From Bacteroidaceae bacterium (GTDB taxonomy: Bacteria > Bacteroidota > Bacteroidia > Bacteroidales > Bacteroidaceae), in NCBI GenBank assembly GCA_017525235.1, contig JAFXTC010000057.1, forward strand, positions 1 through 64,000: 64,000 bases of DNA, written 5' to 3'. Below the pieces are notes generated by a model. The model had not been told where the DNA came from. It ran no database searches and saw only the letters and a program-made list of their open reading frames with translations. Both the position numbers and the translations under genes were made by a program. The stretch's first letter is position 1, and every line of letters begins with the position of its first letter. Below are positions 7,463 through 61,734 of the stretch, in pieces.

Positions 7463-10400
7463 TTACTTCTTTATATCGTTAAGCATGAGAATCCTCTTGT
7501 CTTCGACCATCTTGCGGAAGTCGGGAGCATCTTTGGTAGATGGTGCTGGGGCAAAATAATGTTTTTCGCTGAAGTTGCGCCAGACAAGGAAGTAACTGAG
7601 AGGGTATTTCTGAATTTGTGGCTTTAGCACACGTGTCCACCACGTTGGGTCGGGAAGATTCTGATAGCCACATTCCGTGAGGGCCACAAGGCGGTCCGTT
7701 TTTTTGGCATACTCGCAGAGCATGGTAAGGTCTTTGTTCAGCGTGCCCGTGAAAGCATCCTCGTCACTGGATTGCTGATAAGCATCAAGGCCGATGATGT
7801 CCACGCGGTCATCACCTGGGTAAGAATCCATGTCATCGTCTTTCATACCGTAATTAGGACTCCAACTCCAAACGATATTTGTTAGCTCATCAGCCAAAAG
7901 CTTGTCTTGCAACATATTCCATAGTGCCTTGTATTCCTTGGCTGTGCAGAGTCCCTTGCCCCACCAGAACCAACCGCCGCTGTTCTCGTGCCAGGGACGG
8001 AAGATAACGGGTACAGGCTGGCCGTGTTCGTCCTTCAAAGAACGGAGAAAAGCAGAGAGACGTTGCATCCACTGTTGGAACTTCTGATGCTGGCTGCCGT
8101 CAGGGAGGATGCTTCGAACAGTGCTGGCATTCTTGTTGTCCCATGCTGTGCCACCCGTTAGTGGATTGCGCGGATGCCACGAGATAGTAGCGATACCGCC
8201 GCGACGCACATGTGCTAGCAACTCTTCGCGCATGCGCACGAAAGGTACACTGTCCAGACTTTTGGTATCGCCCATTTCAATACCGCCAAGTTCGAAGCCC
8301 ATCACGGCGGGGTAGTCGCCACAGACGGCAAGCACATCCGAGTGGCCGCGGTCCCACTTCCAGCCGAGGCCATAGAACGGGTCGTCTTGATGACCAAACA
8401 TGATGCCACGGGTACTGAGGTCTTTCAGGCGCAGGAACAATGCTTCTCTGCCATGCGAACTCGTCGGGTAGAGTGGCTGAATTGCAGGAACAACAGTTTG
8501 CGTGGCCTGTGTACGACCGATGGGCGTAATCTTCAGATTGTCAAAATATGGAGTAGAGACACGGCGCTCTTTCAAAGGAGCTATTAAGCCTGCCATGCCC
8601 TTGCCGTAGTGGTCCGAAGTGGCCTGCACGACCTCAGTGCCATCGACATATCCCGTAATCCGGTCACCCTGAAAGCGCAGTTTGAGGTTATGCCATTCGA
8701 GGCCTGAGACATTGCTGAGCACGGCCTCTGCCAACGTGTATTCGCCGCCAACCTCTACGTCCTTTCGGGCGAGGATGATAGCTTGCTGTTCCTTGTCGCC
8801 AATGAGCTCTTTCTTGTCGAGCTTTCCGCGGGTGAGGACGAGTGTCACCTTCCCCTGATCATCCATCTTCAGGTAGTAACCCTTGGCCCAGATGCCGTAA
8901 CCGGAACCCACGTCGCAGAGGCGACCCATCACGCCGGCCTCGTCGCCAGGATTAAGATATACGTCAGCACTGATTTCGTAGTCCTGCCAGTCTGCATCGC
9001 CCAGGATGGTGTAGTGATGCCATTCCGGGGCCCAACTGAGGGTATGGGAACCGACGGTTTGACGGAGGCAAAGGCCATCACGTGAGGGTGCTGGCTCTAG
9101 TTCATAGCATCCAATCAAATCTGCCAGATAATGGGGAAGATATCCCCACTCGGAAGGATTCTCGTACTGCTCGAAGTCATCCTCGTATGGGATAGGGAAG
9201 GGTTGGGATACTGGAATATTGTCAAACGTCCCTTTCTGCTGCCCCGTCACCGTGGAGAGGGAATAGACAGCATCGGGCTTCAAGGTAATGGAGAAACCAC
9301 GGCCCTTGGGAGTGATGTCCTTCAAGCGCACGAACTGTTGCAGCGAGTCGCTATACCATACGCAGAGCTTACCCTCGGCAAGCCCGTCGGTCACCTCTAT
9401 CTTAATCTTCTGTGCTTTCTTCGCCCCCTTCGTCTCGGCAATGATGCTGTAGTCGCCCGTCTGTGGGTCGCGCATCGTCACCATCGAGCCACCACCAGGC
9501 AGATTCAGACAACCATCGTCGATGTAACGCCAGCCTACTTTTGTGAACTGGCCGTAATGGGCATAGCCCCACAGCGCTTCACGTACAAGGTAGTGGCCGC
9601 TCCACGGTTCCTGAGCAAGGAGCATCGGTGGTTCCTTGCTATAAGGCTCCAACGGATATGTAGCGCCGATATCATACCAGTTAACGACCTTGGTTGCTCC
9701 GCTGATGATGTAGTTCAGATTGAAGCATTTCACGATGCTGATGAGACAGTCGAAGCCAGGGAGATACACGTGGTCCTCGCTGTTCCAAATGGGCTTGCCC
9801 ATGTCCTCTGCCATCTTGCGTTCTTCAGAAGTCAATTGTATCTCGCTGAACGTATGAGCACAAACGGCATCGAGCGCATCCCTAAGTTCCGGGTCCTCCT
9901 GCATCCGCTTGAGAAAGTCCATTTTCTTGTCGCCCCAATTGCCGAAGCCGTGCAGCTTTACGTCCCGGAAGCCCCGTTCGTTCATGGCTCTGCGCAGGTG
10001 CTTGGCGAAGTCGGAGTTCCATCCCTTTTCGTTGTGGCAGCCTAAAGCATCCAGCTCTAGACCATGCACCTCACGCAGTCCCTGAAGCCAATCCACGTAG
10101 TAATCCACCATATTGTCTGACCAGTAATTGCCCACCCAGGCAGGGGCACTCCACGATGTAGCATCGAGGGCAAGCGCCGGATTACGCCGTTTCGCCTCCT
10201 GCATCACCCACCACATATAGCCACGCAGGTAGTTGTGGTCGCCTTGACTGTGGCTGTGTGATGGCATCGACCCCTGCGTACTATTGCCGTCACCGGGAAT
10301 TTCCGCCAGTAGTGTGCTGACGCTTGCGCCAAACATTGGTCGATAGACCATATCCATGATCTGTGAGCGCTGAGGATCTGGGTAGTCTTTCAATAATACA

Positions 10401-41094: not shown

Positions 41095-41176
41095 TGTCTT
41101 TACGGTGACACTAGAGTTTCACGCCGTGAAACTGTTTGTTTCCACGTGTGAAACTAACTGTTTCCTGCCGTGAAAC
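41095..41176. repeat. Tandem dyad array, 22-base period, array 1
   Basis: Three 17-base dyads, GTTTCACGCCGTGAAAC (41116-41132), GTTTCCACGTGTGAAAC (41138-41154) and GTTTCCTGCCGTGAAAC (41160-41176), start exactly 22 bases apart. Each pairs GTTTC with GAAAC. A weaker dyad TGTC...GACA (41095-41110) keeps the same phase. The 5-base spacers differ. An inverted repeat AGTGTCAC/GTGACACT (41081-41112) overlaps the left end. The array lies between the divergent patatin and GH3 genes, upstream of both promoters. A row of protein-binding sites on one face of the helix is the simplest reading. Confidence 0.85.
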
Positions 41177-41254
41177 TAAGCTATGGCAGGCGGAGATTCT
41201 TTCATAGCGTGACGAGCTTTGCGTTTTTATGATTCAAGAAAAGAACGATAGAAT

Positions 41255-57220: not shown

Positions 57221-60200
57221 ATGAAGAGAACCTTTACCTTTCTCCTTGCCGTGCTATCAATGCTCCTTGCTGTTCCATCATGGGCACAAGTACTGATAGA
57301 TAATCCCATAACCTCTTTTTCGCCAGATAAGAAGTATGTTATCCAGACAAATGGTCAGGATGGGTCAACACACTGGATGTTTGATGCAGGAACAAATATC
57401 AGCGCCGACAACAACATGGATGTAACCACGCCCGATGCCAAATACATCTGGACCATCACTGCCAATGGCGAAAAATACATGGTTCAAAACCTAAGCTCCA
57501 AACGTTACATCAGCGTTGATGGAAAAAGCAACGGTGGAGCTACTTCAACAAAAAGCGAGGTTACCACGCTCTTCATCGAGGTGGACGACGGCAATTGTGC
57601 GTTCAAGAATGAGTCGGGACAATATATCGACATGCAATATGGCGGCATGTCGCCCTGCACATGGTCTGGCGGTGTGAACGGTTCACGTGTACTGAACATA
57701 TATGAAGTGAATGTCGAGTTGTCTGAAACAGAAATCCTGTTGAGCAAACTTAACGACAGACTGGTGCTGTACGACAAGTATCTGCCGGATTACGGTTCTG
57801 AGACCATCGACCGAGGTACAGAGATTGGTCAGTACAATGCCAGCGATGAGTTGTATGAGACATTCATCAATGCTGTTCAGAGGGCACTTAATATCGTAAG
57901 CGAGATTGAGGAAATTCCTTCTAACGAGGAACTGGAGACTCTGATTGAGACTATCGACAAGAGTTATGCCGATATTATGGCCACCTTGGTTAAACTGACC
58001 ATCGCCAACGGCAACTACCGAATTGTCAGCGCTATGGAATGGACAAAGACCATCAGAACGGATACGGGCGAGGTGGATTCTGACAATAATCCCATCTACA
58101 TTGAAACCACGGTGCATCCCCAAAAGGCTATGTATGCCACCTTGGAGGACATGAAAGCCATGTGGGCCACCTTAGACAGTACAGACTGCCGCTATCTATG
58201 GACAATCACCAATAATTCCGCTACAGGTTTTATTACTTTGATGAATATTGCCACAGATGGTATTTTGAACGACTGTTCACAGAGTACGCAGGCAACTCTT
58301 AGTACCACCAGTACAACTGAAATGTACTACGAATATGAAGGACGTACGGAAACCGGCAAGATAAAAGTTGCCATGCGTCCCAGCAACCGAGGCGGATATG
58401 GATTCCTTCACGCCAATAACCATGGCGGTGGTTCAGGCGACCATAGCAATATCGTCGGATGGGAGGCTGCAGCCGATGCGAGTCAATGGATTCTGGAACC
58501 TGTTAGCGACGAGGAAGTAAAGAAACTGGTTGATAACTATGCTCCCATCAAGAATCACGAGCTACTCGTCAGCATGTATCAACAACTTATTGTGAAGGCG
58601 GACAGCCTCATTGAGGTGGCTACCGACGAAACACGCACAGAGCTCATCACCAGGGCTTCACAGTTGAGTTGTCCTTTTGGACAGAATGATCTTAACCCTA
58701 ACAGCCCTGACGGTGGCGATATAGGTTCTCTAATAGATAACAATGCTAACACATATTATCATACTGTGTGGAGTGGTGGTGCACAAGAGCCTGGCTCACA
58801 CTGGCTGTTTGCCACATTCGATGAACCTGTAGGCGGTGACTTGCAGATAACAATCACACGTCGTACAGGAGCCACCAACGATCATGTAAGCAAAATGGAT
58901 GTTTACGGTGGCACAGATATGGGGGGCGATGACGACAGTTTTGTACTTTTGGCTCAGTTGGATTTCCCATATAACAAGCAAGGCGAGGTTGTTAACTCTG
59001 CATTGTTCAATGTAGAGGGAACTTACTCCGTTTACAAGTATGTGGTTACAGAAACATCGCCCACATCTTACAATCGCGGATACTTCCACATGGCTGAATT
59101 CAATATGCTACAGATTAGTGTAAACGAGAACAATCAGCTAAAGGGTATGGGCGAGATAGGTGCTAAATTGGTTGAAGAAGTGACAAAAGCCAAGGAAATA
59201 GACCTTGAAGATCTCGACGTTAGTGATTACGAAGCCTTGAAGACTGCTTACGATGCAGCCAAGGCTATCTATGTTGATCCCACACCATTACGCGAAGCTA
59301 TCAAGCGCAACATGAACGCTACAGAACTGGTAGTTATTGGTACCAATCCTGGTTACTGGAGTGCAGAAAGCAGTGCCGGTTCCCTCGATACAGTTCTCAA
59401 GGAAGCAGCCGAATATGACAAGGCTGGTGTTTATACGCAGGCCCAGACGGATGAATATATCCGGCTGATTGAGGCTGGGGTAGGCGATATCATGTCGTGT
59501 GCCAATCCTGTTGAGGAAGGGAAATGGTATGCCATTCACTTTGCATCAGAAGAAATGTACAATCAATACGGGTGGCAAAAAGGTAATGCAGTTAACACCA
59601 AGCTAGGCGATCTTTATAACAACTACATAGCTCCTGCTAACGTGGAGTCGAATGGTGAAGACAATGAGATGTTGGTATTGCCAGAGATGGACAATGTTAC
59701 TCGCGGGCAGGCACTTCGTTTTGTCAGCGACCAGATTATTGAGGCAATGGATCAGACCGCCTTCCGTTTTGTTGCCCAAGGCGACAGCGCATTCGCGATA
59801 CAGCATAAGAGCGGACTTTATATTAATGGTGCTGGCGTCAGCACAAATCTTTCGTTGAGCCTTACTCCTGCGCTCTTTAATGTACGCGCTGTAGGTTTGG
59901 GTAAGGTGCTGATACATGCCCGTGACCTAAAGGGCAGCGAATACGGAGATAACCCCGTTTATCTGCATGCCCAGAATGCAGGACACTCTCTGGTAACATG
60001 GACAGCTACAGAGATTGAAAGCAATAGTGCTCTCTTTATTTCCGAAATTGACGAAAGTGAACTATATGACACCGAGTTAGCTGAGGGCATAAAAGAAAGT
60101 ATAAAGCCCAACAGCATGCGCATCTGGTGCTATCCTGTAGGTTTCAGTGTTTCAGAAGGCGAACTATACGAATACATGGGAACTTACGAAAAAGACAATG

Positions 60201-60730
60201 CCTGGCATTATGCCTTCAATAAGGTGGAAGAGGCAAAGCCTGGTCAGCCTGTTCTGTATGTCAATGGTAGTCTGTCTTCTTTCGACAAGGATGCTGAGGA
60301 TGAGTATGAAACGCTCGCCATTACAGGCACGAGTTTTGCGCCAGAGCCAATAACGGGGAACGGATTCTATGGAACTTACACATATCAGTGGGTTGGTCCT
60401 GGAATGGTTGTTGTTTATGGTGGTGACTTTGGTAGTTGGGGAAATACTCTTGTGGAAGCCACTGGCAATGATAACACGAATTGTACACGTGATGTTACTG
60501 CTAATACAGGTTACATCGTTCCGAATGAGAGTGTCATCAGCGAGGCTGACTTTGATCTTGTATTCATCATCGAAGGTGAATCAACAGGTATAAACAATCT
60601 CACCCCAACCTTCTCTAAAGGCGAGGGAGCCATATTCGATCTTTCAGGAAGAAAAATAGATAATTCTCAATTAAAAACGGGCATCTACATTGTCAATGGC
60701 AAAAAGGTTCTTGTTCATAAGAACAGATAG
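57221..60730 (+). CDS. Large secreted protein with F5/8C-like domain and sorting tail
   Basis: 1169 residues, signal peptide (FTFLLAVLSMLLAVPSWA-Q). Residues about 35-170 and 270-430 look like beta-trefoil/ricin-like modules (repeated YIWTITANGEKYMVQNLSSKRYIS and CRYLWTITNNSATGFITLMN). Residues about 485-632 match an F5/8 type C (CBM32-like) domain: IGSLIDNNANTYYHTVWSG, HWLFATFDEPVGGDLQITITRR, YNRGYFHMAEFNML. A FIVAR-like helical piece follows (SDYEALKTAYDAAKAIYVDP). The C-terminus GAIFDLSGRKIDNSQLKTGI and YIVNGKKVLVHKNR is a sorting tail. No catalytic motif; probably a surface glycan-binding protein. Confidence 0.85.
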   Translation: MKRTFTFLLAVLSMLLAVPSWAQVLIDNPITSFSPDKKYVIQTNGQDGSTHWMFDAGTNISADNNMDVTTPDAKYIWTITANGEKYMVQNLSSKRYISVDGKSNGGATSTKSEVTTLFIEVDDGNCAFKNESGQYIDMQYGGMSPCTWSGGVNGSRVLNIYEVNVELSETEILLSKLNDRLVLYDKYLPDYGSETIDRGTEIGQYNASDELYETFINAVQRALNIVSEIEEIPSNEELETLIETIDKSYADIMATLVKLTIANGNYRIVSAMEWTKTIRTDTGEVDSDNNPIYIETTVHPQKAMYATLEDMKAMWATLDSTDCRYLWTITNNSATGFITLMNIATDGILNDCSQSTQATLSTTSTTEMYYEYEGRTETGKIKVAMRPSNRGGYGFLHANNHGGGSGDHSNIVGWEAAADASQWILEPVSDEEVKKLVDNYAPIKNHELLVSMYQQLIVKADSLIEVATDETRTELITRASQLSCPFGQNDLNPNSPDGGDIGSLIDNNANTYYHTVWSGGAQEPGSHWLFATFDEPVGGDLQITITRRTGATNDHVSKMDVYGGTDMGGDDDSFVLLAQLDFPYNKQGEVVNSALFNVEGTYSVYKYVVTETSPTSYNRGYFHMAEFNMLQISVNENNQLKGMGEIGAKLVEEVTKAKEIDLEDLDVSDYEALKTAYDAAKAIYVDPTPLREAIKRNMNATELVVIGTNPGYWSAESSAGSLDTVLKEAAEYDKAGVYTQAQTDEYIRLIEAGVGDIMSCANPVEEGKWYAIHFASEEMYNQYGWQKGNAVNTKLGDLYNNYIAPANVESNGEDNEMLVLPEMDNVTRGQALRFVSDQIIEAMDQTAFRFVAQGDSAFAIQHKSGLYINGAGVSTNLSLSLTPALFNVRAVGLGKVLIHARDLKGSEYGDNPVYLHAQNAGHSLVTWTATEIESNSALFISEIDESELYDTELAEGIKESIKPNSMRIWCYPVGFSVSEGELYEYMGTYEKDNAWHYAFNKVEEAKPGQPVLYVNGSLSSFDKDAEDEYETLAITGTSFAPEPITGNGFYGTYTYQWVGPGMVVVYGGDFGSWGNTLVEATGNDNTNCTRDVTANTGYIVPNESVISEADFDLVFIIEGESTGINNLTPTFSKGEGAIFDLSGRKIDNSQLKTGIYIVNGKKVLVHKNR

Positions 60731-60808: not shown

Positions 60809-60842
60809 GAGTCTGGCAGACGCCAGGCTCTCCTTTTATTTT
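60809..60842 (+). terminator. Second terminator hairpin in the same gap
   Basis: GAGTCTGGC and GCCAGGCTC form a 9-bp stem with one wobble and loop AGAC, followed by TCCTTTTATTTTG. It gives a second stop to the plus-strand transcript before the 22-base array. Confidence 0.65.
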
Positions 60843-60866
60843 GTGTGTTAAGCAAATGTTAAAAAC

Positions 60867-60965
60867 GCGACGTGTCGCAAAGCCAAACGCGACGTGTCGT
60901 GTTGGCCGATGCGACGTGTCGTGTTGGCCGATGCGACGTGTCGTGTTGGCCGATGCGACGTGTGG
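60867..60965. repeat. Tandem dyad array, 22-base period, array 2
   Basis: Five units begin at 60867, 60889, 60911, 60933 and 60955, exactly 22 bases apart. Each starts GCGACGTGTCG (dyad CGAC-GT-GTCG); in units 2-4 it is followed by TGTTGGCCGAT without change. The first unit has a different spacer and the last is altered to GCGACGTGTGG. It lies between convergent genes, after two plus-strand terminators. There are no unique spacers, so it is not a CRISPR. The period equals that of array 1 although the sequences are unrelated. Confidence 0.9.
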
Positions 60966-61037
60966 CATATATAAACAGTTAGGGCCCGACTTAAAGTCGA
61001 GCCCCAATTTGAGTATTAATTTTGTAAGTTAGTTACC

Positions 61038-61113: not shown

Positions 61114-61734
61114 TCACTTAACTGCAACCTTCTTGCCATCAACTACGAAGATACCCTTCTGAGCCTTGCTTACACGCTGACCGTTCAGGTTGTAGATAAC
61201 GCCGCTCTTTGTCTGCTCAGCAGAAATAGCGTTGATAGCGTCGGGATTCAGCTCGACATAAATCTTAGCAGTTTTATCACCATCCTGATAGTATGCATTA
61301 ATTGTCTTTGGATCGTTGCCGTCACCCTGATCAGAGAAGTTGATATCATATACCTCAACAGTACCACTCAAAGTTCCATCTAATTTCATATAAAAAACTT
61401 CACCGTCTTCTCCAGTGATACTCAAATTCTGAGGACAAGCCAAATTGATTGAATATACATTATCAGAAGGTGACTTAACATCAAATGTGTAATTGCTACC
61501 CTTTGCACGTGTATTATTCTTCTTGATAATTTCCTCTTCGTCTTCGTTAAGCGCAACAGTTACACCCTCAGGGAGTTTAACCTTGACACCAACTCCAGTA
61601 AGAGGGAAGTTGTTCTTAACGATGAAGGTCAGAACATCGTTGTTACGGCCAGTTACAGTCAAAGAAGCCTCGTTCTGTGCCATGGCTGTCAAAGTCAGAG
61701 CAAAGACAGCTAATAAAGTAAAGATCTTTTTCAT
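61114..61734 (-). CDS. Secreted cohesin-like protein with sorting tail
   Basis: 206 residues, signal peptide (IFTLLAVFALTLTAMA-Q). The core (about 20-150) has the alternating strands of a cohesin-type beta-sandwich (SLTVTGRNNDVLTFIVKNNFPLTGVGVKVKLPEGVTVAL...YSINLACPQNLSITGEDGEVFYMKL). The tail VIYNLNGQRVSKAQKGIFVV and DGKKVAVK is a type IX-like sorting signal. It follows the cohesin-dockerin gene by 53 bases on the same strand and is probably co-transcribed. Cohesin likeness is judged from pattern only. The two genes may form a matched pair. Confidence 0.75.
   Translation of the reverse strand: MKKIFTLLAVFALTLTAMAQNEASLTVTGRNNDVLTFIVKNNFPLTGVGVKVKLPEGVTVALNEDEEEIIKKNNTRAKGSNYTFDVKSPSDNVYSINLACPQNLSITGEDGEVFYMKLDGTLSGTVEVYDINFSDQGDGNDPKTINAYYQDGDKTAKIYVELNPDAINAISAEQTKSGVIYNLNGQRVSKAQKGIFVVDGKKVAVK

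Follow-up and report, generated by a model that had tools for sequence, protein, structure and literature searches.

BrickBuilt in Porphyromonas (PMC4596501) and PINSR in Prevotella (PMC4755523) are dispersed intergenic repeats that were each described for one species or clade. BrickBuilt (BrB) occurs in Porphyromonas gingivalis, with 19 copies in ATCC 33277, and is built of tandem bricks of 23 nt, about two helical turns, repeated between 1 and 22.8 times. It is reported to be species-specific, with units that are imperfect both within and between elements, a leader of up to 285 nt, a tail of up to 318 nt and terminal inverted repeats that resemble the ends of ISPg elements (PMC4596501). PINSR is a 188-bp intergenic repeat of Prevotella intermedia and P. 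nigrescens (177 and 184 copies); it is reported to be restricted to that clade, judged non-coding and free of terminal inverted repeats (PMC4755523). REP and BIME sequences are reported to be species-specific palindromic intergenic repeats that are often clustered, are associated with RAYT transposases and favour convergent and unidirectional gaps (PMC3733652, PMC2817692). The open-licence papers searched yielded no earlier account of 22-bp arrays from Bacteroidetes or Prevotella.

Anatomy of the array

The window, a 64,000-nucleotide stretch of a Bacteroidaceae draft genome, contains two arrays of 22-bp repeats. Its protein content, and a family comprising 30 genera or more, suggest that the genus is Prevotella-like. 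The second, at 60867-60976, consists of five units that begin at exactly 60867, 60889, 60911, 60933 and 60955 (Table 1). The unit count, the exact period and the run of three identical units described in the original prediction all held on re-examination, and TRF reports 60889-60963 as a repeat of period 22 with 3.4 copies, 100% matches and a score of 150. Units 1-4 each contain GCGACGTGTCG exactly, and unit 5 has GCGACGTGTGG instead. The identity of units 2-4 points to a recent local duplication. Within the 383-bp intergenic stretch the lag-22 score is 63; when the stretch was resampled 300 times at first order, no lag between 8 and 59 scored above 13. The array does lie between convergent genes, as had been proposed: the enclosing ORFs are 57221-60730 (+) and 61114-61734 (-), and neither has a Pfam match at E <= 0.001. 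Three terminator-like sites were found in the window, against 0.6 expected.

Table 1. Features of the second array and its immediate surroundings (window coordinates)
Feature	Coordinates	Strand	Remarks
Leader TGTTAAAAAC	60857..60866	+	Left end of the element; shared leader; profile match 60857-60934
Unit 1, GCGACGTGTCGCAAAGCCAAAC	60867..60888	+	
Units 2-4, GCGACGTGTCGTGTTGGCCGAT three times	60889..60954	+	Identical
Unit 5, GCGACGTGTGGCATATATAAAC	60955..60976	+	Last, degenerate
Terminator-like site	60866..60879	-	Within the element: minus-strand unit 1, then TTTTTAACAT of the leader
Terminator-like hairpin	60809..60830	+	After the left gene, outside the element
Terminator-like hairpin	60979..61007	-	After the right gene, outside the element

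The first array (array 1) lies at 41116-41181. The 7-base arms of its first unit, GTTTCAC and GTGAAAC, equal the two halves of parS, the centromere site of bacteria, but have a 3-bp insert between them. Its middle unit contains CACGTG. The two arrays had been thought to share no sequence. This view stands insofar as a profile of the second array misses array 1 at E <= 0.001, but it is weakened by a partial resemblance, in that the middle unit of array 1 has CACGTGTGAAAC and the second array has ACGTGT.

A dispersed element in this genome

The second array belongs to a family with many further copies in the genome. It is one copy of a dispersed element in which phased dyad units of 22 bp come after a TGTTAAAAAY leader. 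A two-unit pattern allowing up to three mismatches gives 31 matches in the 2.6-Mb draft genome (18 forward and 13 reverse, four of them within the window array, with some places matched on both strands), and a reversed control gives none. In aligned copies the leader TGTTAAAAAY is mostly preceded by AA. Most copies then have between three and five units of 22 bp, and one copy has just one. The units combine an ACGYGT core with a spacer such as GTTTGCCGAT, and their conserved portions are ACGYGT, TT and GC(C), with variable bases in between. Several alternative tails close the copies, some of them also in 22-bp phase, and a T-rich end is often found. A-rich stretches also precede seven copies from other species.

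Twenty-one elements of this genome were gathered by way of their leader, and 18 of these, all from this genome, were used to construct a profile from sequence only. The profile has 69 matches at E <= 0.001 in its own genome, both strands counted. At E <= 3.1e-14 it identifies 27 distinct places in the 2.6 Mb, where the 18 model members match by construction. The copy in the window, itself part of the model, matches at E = 7.3e-18. When units are compared position by position across elements, their identity is 0.714, compared with 0.687 when positions are permuted, and none of 2,000 permutations gave a value as high. Because the order of units is conserved in this way, what spreads seems to be a block of several units. 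Inspection by eye of elements with both ends revealed neither a target-site duplication nor a clear terminal inverted repeat.

Other repeats occur in the same intergenic regions. In L013, L025 and L006, a hairpin element, AACACCTAACC...GGTTAGGTGTT, is located directly before the TGTTAAAAA leader of the leader-collected (class A) elements, an adjacency that forms a mosaic of intergenic repeats; in L019, only the right arm of this hairpin lies to the left of the class A element. The tails of L006, L017, L019 and L083 carry palindromes like GACAAAACTTTGTC and TTGACAAAGTTTTGTC in 22-bp phase and end near TGACAA. The genome also contains other classes of 22-bp unit, such as AGTCCG-N7-CGGACT beside valS (L053:7072) and at L045:9973.

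Taking as given what is observed of the element, that is, its architecture, dispersal and intergenic placement together with the genus distribution and shared core described below, we judge the chances to be about even that the window array represents a dispersed, non-coding intergenic element that is specific to its lineage and composed of phased 22-bp dyad bricks behind an A-tract leader. Each brick, two helical turns long, would be the site of a dimeric protein that is supplied in trans and either binds DNA or recombines it. Copies would spread several units at a time, as other non-autonomous repeats do, and slippage would later lengthen or shorten them, as the three identical units here may illustrate. 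If dimers must sit on the same side of the helix for binding or for spreading, the 22-bp phase would be kept as the sequence drifts between species. Counting against this explanation, no binding protein was found, and units within one element are about as alike (0.722) as same-position units of different elements, which indicates that local homogenization also acts.

The 22-bp period across genomes

Autocorrelation at lag 22 had been put forward as the test of a wider class of arrays. In 464 kb of this genome, a sample biased upward in that it comprises the window and four contigs already known to contain element copies, matches with a score of at least 13 number 16 at lag 22 and 0, 2, 1, 0 and 2 at lags 19, 20, 23, 25 and 26. 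Lags 14 (30), 9 (15), 21 (14), 12 (12) and 18 (11) have counts that are higher or of similar size. The score is a simple ungapped one, and arrays with indels are missed. When the threshold is raised to 16, lag 22 retains 13 matches, lag 14 has 17 and lag 7 has 32. Heptamer tandem repeats are thus commoner than 22-bp arrays in the genus.

At this higher threshold, lag 22 has nine matches in 194 kb of genome G016 (lag 7, 12) and six in 127 kb of G032. Ten other genomes of the same genus, 318 kb in all, give 16 at lag 22 and 24 at lag 7, and six of the ten contain a lag-22 match. In three same-genus sets picked regardless of arrays, lag 22 ranks first outright or second to lag 7. Deeper stretches contain 14 lag-22 matches in 120 kb of G012 and five in 120 kb of G016. 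Later stretches of G017 have only two in 160 kb, and lags 7, 8 and 16 are commoner there. Some of the sets from relatives are mostly first contigs, and others are large contigs. The predicted peak therefore exists, also in sets chosen without regard to arrays; it is neither the sole peak, lags 7 and 14 being commoner in this genome, nor present in every genome, as G017 illustrates. The outcome that would have reduced the shared period of the two arrays to a coincidence did not arise.

Outside the genus the period becomes sparse. In 400 kb from other genera of the family, lag 22 has eight matches spread over six of 15 genera, at least one of them close to a simple repeat, and lags 19, 20, 23, 25 and 26 have 1, 0, 1, 0 and 0. 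No lag-22 match with a score of at least 16 occurs in the 253 kb sampled across 15 further families of the order, some of which contributed little sequence (422 bases at minimum). Heptamer repeats are rare in these 15 families as well, with two lag-7 matches in the 253 kb. A genome of another family, G054, carries exact 23-bp tandem arrays with a partial dyad (CTCACAAGTTTGTCAG...) at L123:8231-8298 and 9647-9751, and 23 bp is the period of BrickBuilt.

Tandem 22-bp arrays, mostly intergenic and dyad-bearing, thus recur in the genus with differing sequences. In G016 a single array of 19 rows (L221:184-586) runs through different dyads in one phase. The original prediction saw here a class of elements defined by geometry. 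The occurrence of different dyads with one geometry across species supports such a class, though not one defined by geometry alone, as many arrays are related and have an ACGYGT core and a TTTGCC-like spacer in common. The fixed period may come from inheritance of a founder repeat or from selection by a bound protein. A broader proposal, conceivable but doubtful, is a family-wide system of palindromic intergenic sites held in exact 22-bp (two-turn) tandem phase as their sequence turns over between species, with the phase kept even within an array that runs through several different dyads. If it were true, it would imply a structure- or lattice-recognizing protein that reads geometry more than letters, or else a fast co-evolving set of protein specificities.

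Distribution and kinship

The profile matches 25 of 61 genomes of the genus and has no match in the other 36. At least 20 matches are found in 12 of the 61, this genome included, or 11 of the 60 further genomes; 77 candidates were scored per genome, and both strands of one place can count. Among 57 genomes from 29 other genera of the family there are no matches, and the three matching genomes in the family draw belong to the same genus. A scan of taxonomic distribution added ten single matches in unrelated organisms, which were taken as chance.

Arrays of different species are partly related. Between-species unit profiles resemble one another beyond column-permuted profiles, with 55 of 2,240 pairs at a score of at least 12 against 5, and seven against none at 14 or more. 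This likeness rests on ACGTG in the core and TTTGC/GGCAAA in the spacer. Mapped onto a valS tree, the label of profile-rich genomes requires four changes, at least three of them forced by well-supported branches, compared with a shuffled mean of 7.2 (2 of 500 shuffles were as low). The tree represents one gene in 29 rows and includes eight of the 12 profile-rich genomes, those without a fetched valS locus being absent and two further rows having been dropped for stops in their translation. Sister genomes G000 and G001 on this tree have 69 and 0 profile matches. These label changes fit mobility, but they fit rapid divergence as well.

A 22-bp array with a score of at least 12 is located within 500 bp downstream of valS in eight of 30 loci of the genus, this genome included, and the sequences are mostly different. 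At a score of at least 13 there are seven arrays at lag 22 and at most one at any other lag from 12 to 31. Downstream of the SpoU gene, five of 30 loci have an array at lag 22 and four at lag 15. None of 29 valS loci in the family draw, three of which are from this genus, has a 22-bp array. In the closest valS relative, G001 (L148; 88% identical over the 299-aa C-terminal part), a 22-bp array occupies about the same place as the array at L053:7072-7136 and is unrelated to it in sequence.

Arrays of this kind could, in line with the original prediction, serve as sites for a nucleoid-associated or chromosome-organizing protein that binds as cooperative dimers every two turns and is selected for at many intergenic places. 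The exact 22-bp phase, the core conserved across species, the many dispersed intergenic copies and the absence of column-wise strand bias (see below) speak for such sites. We nonetheless think this unlikely, since relatives are far apart both in sequence and in copy number, as in the pair G000 and G001, more than half of the genus genomes show no match to this sequence family, and no candidate protein was found.

Genomic placement, strands and RNA folding

ORFs were called by a simple script that takes ATG starts, longest first. Although these calls cover approximately 90% of the sampled bases, 40 of 44 lag-22 arrays lie outside them. Gaps of 100 bp or more contain 51 arrays; 19 of these are situated between convergent ORFs, where 17% of gap bases lie (p = 5e-4, with copies of one family not being independent). 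The class A elements are distributed as three convergent, ten tandem, two divergent and six unplaced, and the 15 placed ones by themselves show no convergent-gap excess. A-runs on the left and T-runs on the right border 50 of 73 arrays, compared with 23 in the opposite arrangement (p = 0.002); the figures are 37 and 16 when this genome is left out.

Neighbouring genes are varied. Among 35 ORFs flanking elements, GH92 and AAA_14 are the sole families seen twice, and no transposase is present among the 25 families listed of the 45 Pfam families found. The only recombinase seen beside an array is L053:18549, an ORF whose Phage_integrase match falls slightly short of the cut-off, 895 bp from the array at L053:17569. 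Locus-specific regulation was rejected after a scan of 18 neighbours (valS, a SpoU methylase, a ThiL-like protein, glycosidases and others), in which one AraC-type and one HU-like protein appeared without recurrence. Promoter control was set aside in view of the divergent gaps, which hold 10 of the 51 arrays and 25% of gap bases; a phage origin, in view of three exact 17-mer matches in viral contigs, none of which continues as a 22-bp array; and a plasmid origin, in view of a left-flank protein without a match in plasmids.

Convergent-gap enrichment and A/T-tract borders would also suit RNA elements, such as bidirectional terminators or 3'-UTR hairpins formed by tandem palindromes. Folding agrees with this to some extent. 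As plus-strand RNA the window array reaches -68.6 kcal/mol (z -7.45), compared with -44.3 (z -3.24) for the minus strand. Folding is stronger in arrays than in the rest of the intergenic sequence (-0.337 versus -0.208 kcal/mol per nt), and the two strands are further apart (0.069 versus 0.047). By cells, G.T and A.C pairs are asymmetric (chi2 93 on 49 df), a figure computed over units that are not independent. By columns, however, the per-array asymmetry is at chance (p = 0.39), and 35 arrays in tandem context show no significant sense-strand preference (18 versus 12, p = 0.19). No Rfam family matches the window at its gathering score. A simple terminator there is less likely because both genes have terminator-like hairpins of their own outside the array, though a third, minus-strand site exists at the left end of the array. 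The arrays in divergent gaps also tell against transcribed elements. We consider the RNA explanation improbable. The absence of column-wise strand bias fits recognition of DNA, and, on balance, DNA-level recognition is favoured over a transcribed hairpin.

Dyads and repeat turnover

Dyads are a frequent property of the 22-bp arrays. Measured against column-permuted units, the dyad z exceeds 2 in 66% of 44 lag-22 arrays (mean z 2.39), compared with 3% of 37 arrays of period 14 and 24% of 25 of period 21. The proportions are 45% of 11 at period 18, 55% of 11 at period 24 and 50% of six at period 27; dyads are therefore not confined to period 22, being present in about half of these few arrays. 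A second dyad 11 bp away, found in 30 of 65 arrays, was dropped as evidence because a 22-bp period and one dyad largely imply it.

Pairing between arms of the same unit exceeds that of arms swapped between units of one array, but weakly overall (63 arrays with 10-bp arms, p = 0.17; 61 arrays with 7-bp arms, p = 0.012; 17 arrays of period 21, p = 0.036). It is strong in single mosaics such as L218:1384, L127:3627 and L221:184. Within the family of the window array, the spacer-centred dyad has 75.0% of cells paired versus 70.3% after shuffling (0 of 500) and a covariation score of 0.221 versus 0.179 (5 of 500), excesses that could also be cited for RNA hairpins. Relatedness alone can produce them. 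Pairs changed on both sides (5 versus 5.8 shuffled) and further pair types (17 versus 18.1) show no excess in this family. The covariation of core-centred pairs in the family likewise does not go beyond shuffles, a result that counts against the dispersed element of dimer sites.

Weak covariation overall would be expected if the arrays were neutral minisatellites, functionless products of slippage whose 22-bp period goes back to an old founder repeat and lasts because a tandem array retains its period. The three identical units in the window, the shared core, by which some of the arrays must have a common origin, and the abundance of 7-bp tandem repeats in the same genomes are in keeping with such an origin. 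Against it stand the persistence of dyads in unrelated sequences, the conserved order of units between dispersed copies and the A/T-tract borders, and we give it little credence. Were it correct, an inherited period would account for a considerable share of the repeats between genes in these genomes.

Comparison with known systems

Our best reading is that the element is a BrickBuilt- or REP-like intergenic repeat, probably non-autonomous, whose unit is a two-helical-turn dimer site. With REP and BIME sequences it has in common species-specific palindromic intergenic repeats; it differs in its head-to-tail 22-bp phase and in having no constant GTAG or CGTC tag. GTAG/CTAC is present in 23 and CGTC/GACG in 25 of 54 units of this genome, and in 0 and 6 of 15 selected units from loci of other species. 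In view of this inconstant tag the element was not assigned to the REP/RAYT class. The Y1 transposase family PF01797 has one match over the cut-off in this genome (C39, E = 6.9e-10) and none in the array-rich but incomplete genomes G005, G008, G012 and G016.

PINSR, compared by its description rather than its consensus, is similar in being intergenic, abundant, clade-restricted, non-coding and devoid of terminal inverted repeats. It is a 188-bp element, and the excerpted text mentions no 22-bp substructure. The likeness to BrickBuilt, again judged from its description and not from the brick sequence, extends to the architecture itself: spacer-less tandem short bricks in a dispersed intergenic element with a leader. 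The period here is 22 bp rather than 23 nt, the leader is short, and no terminal inverted repeats were seen by eye in place of the IS-like ends of BrickBuilt. An exact period with changing dyads, found across the genus and more sparsely across the family, could join such repeats into one class. In the published descriptions as far as available, BrickBuilt (23 nt) and PINSR (188 bp) have the closest architectures, and BrickBuilt is the nearest.
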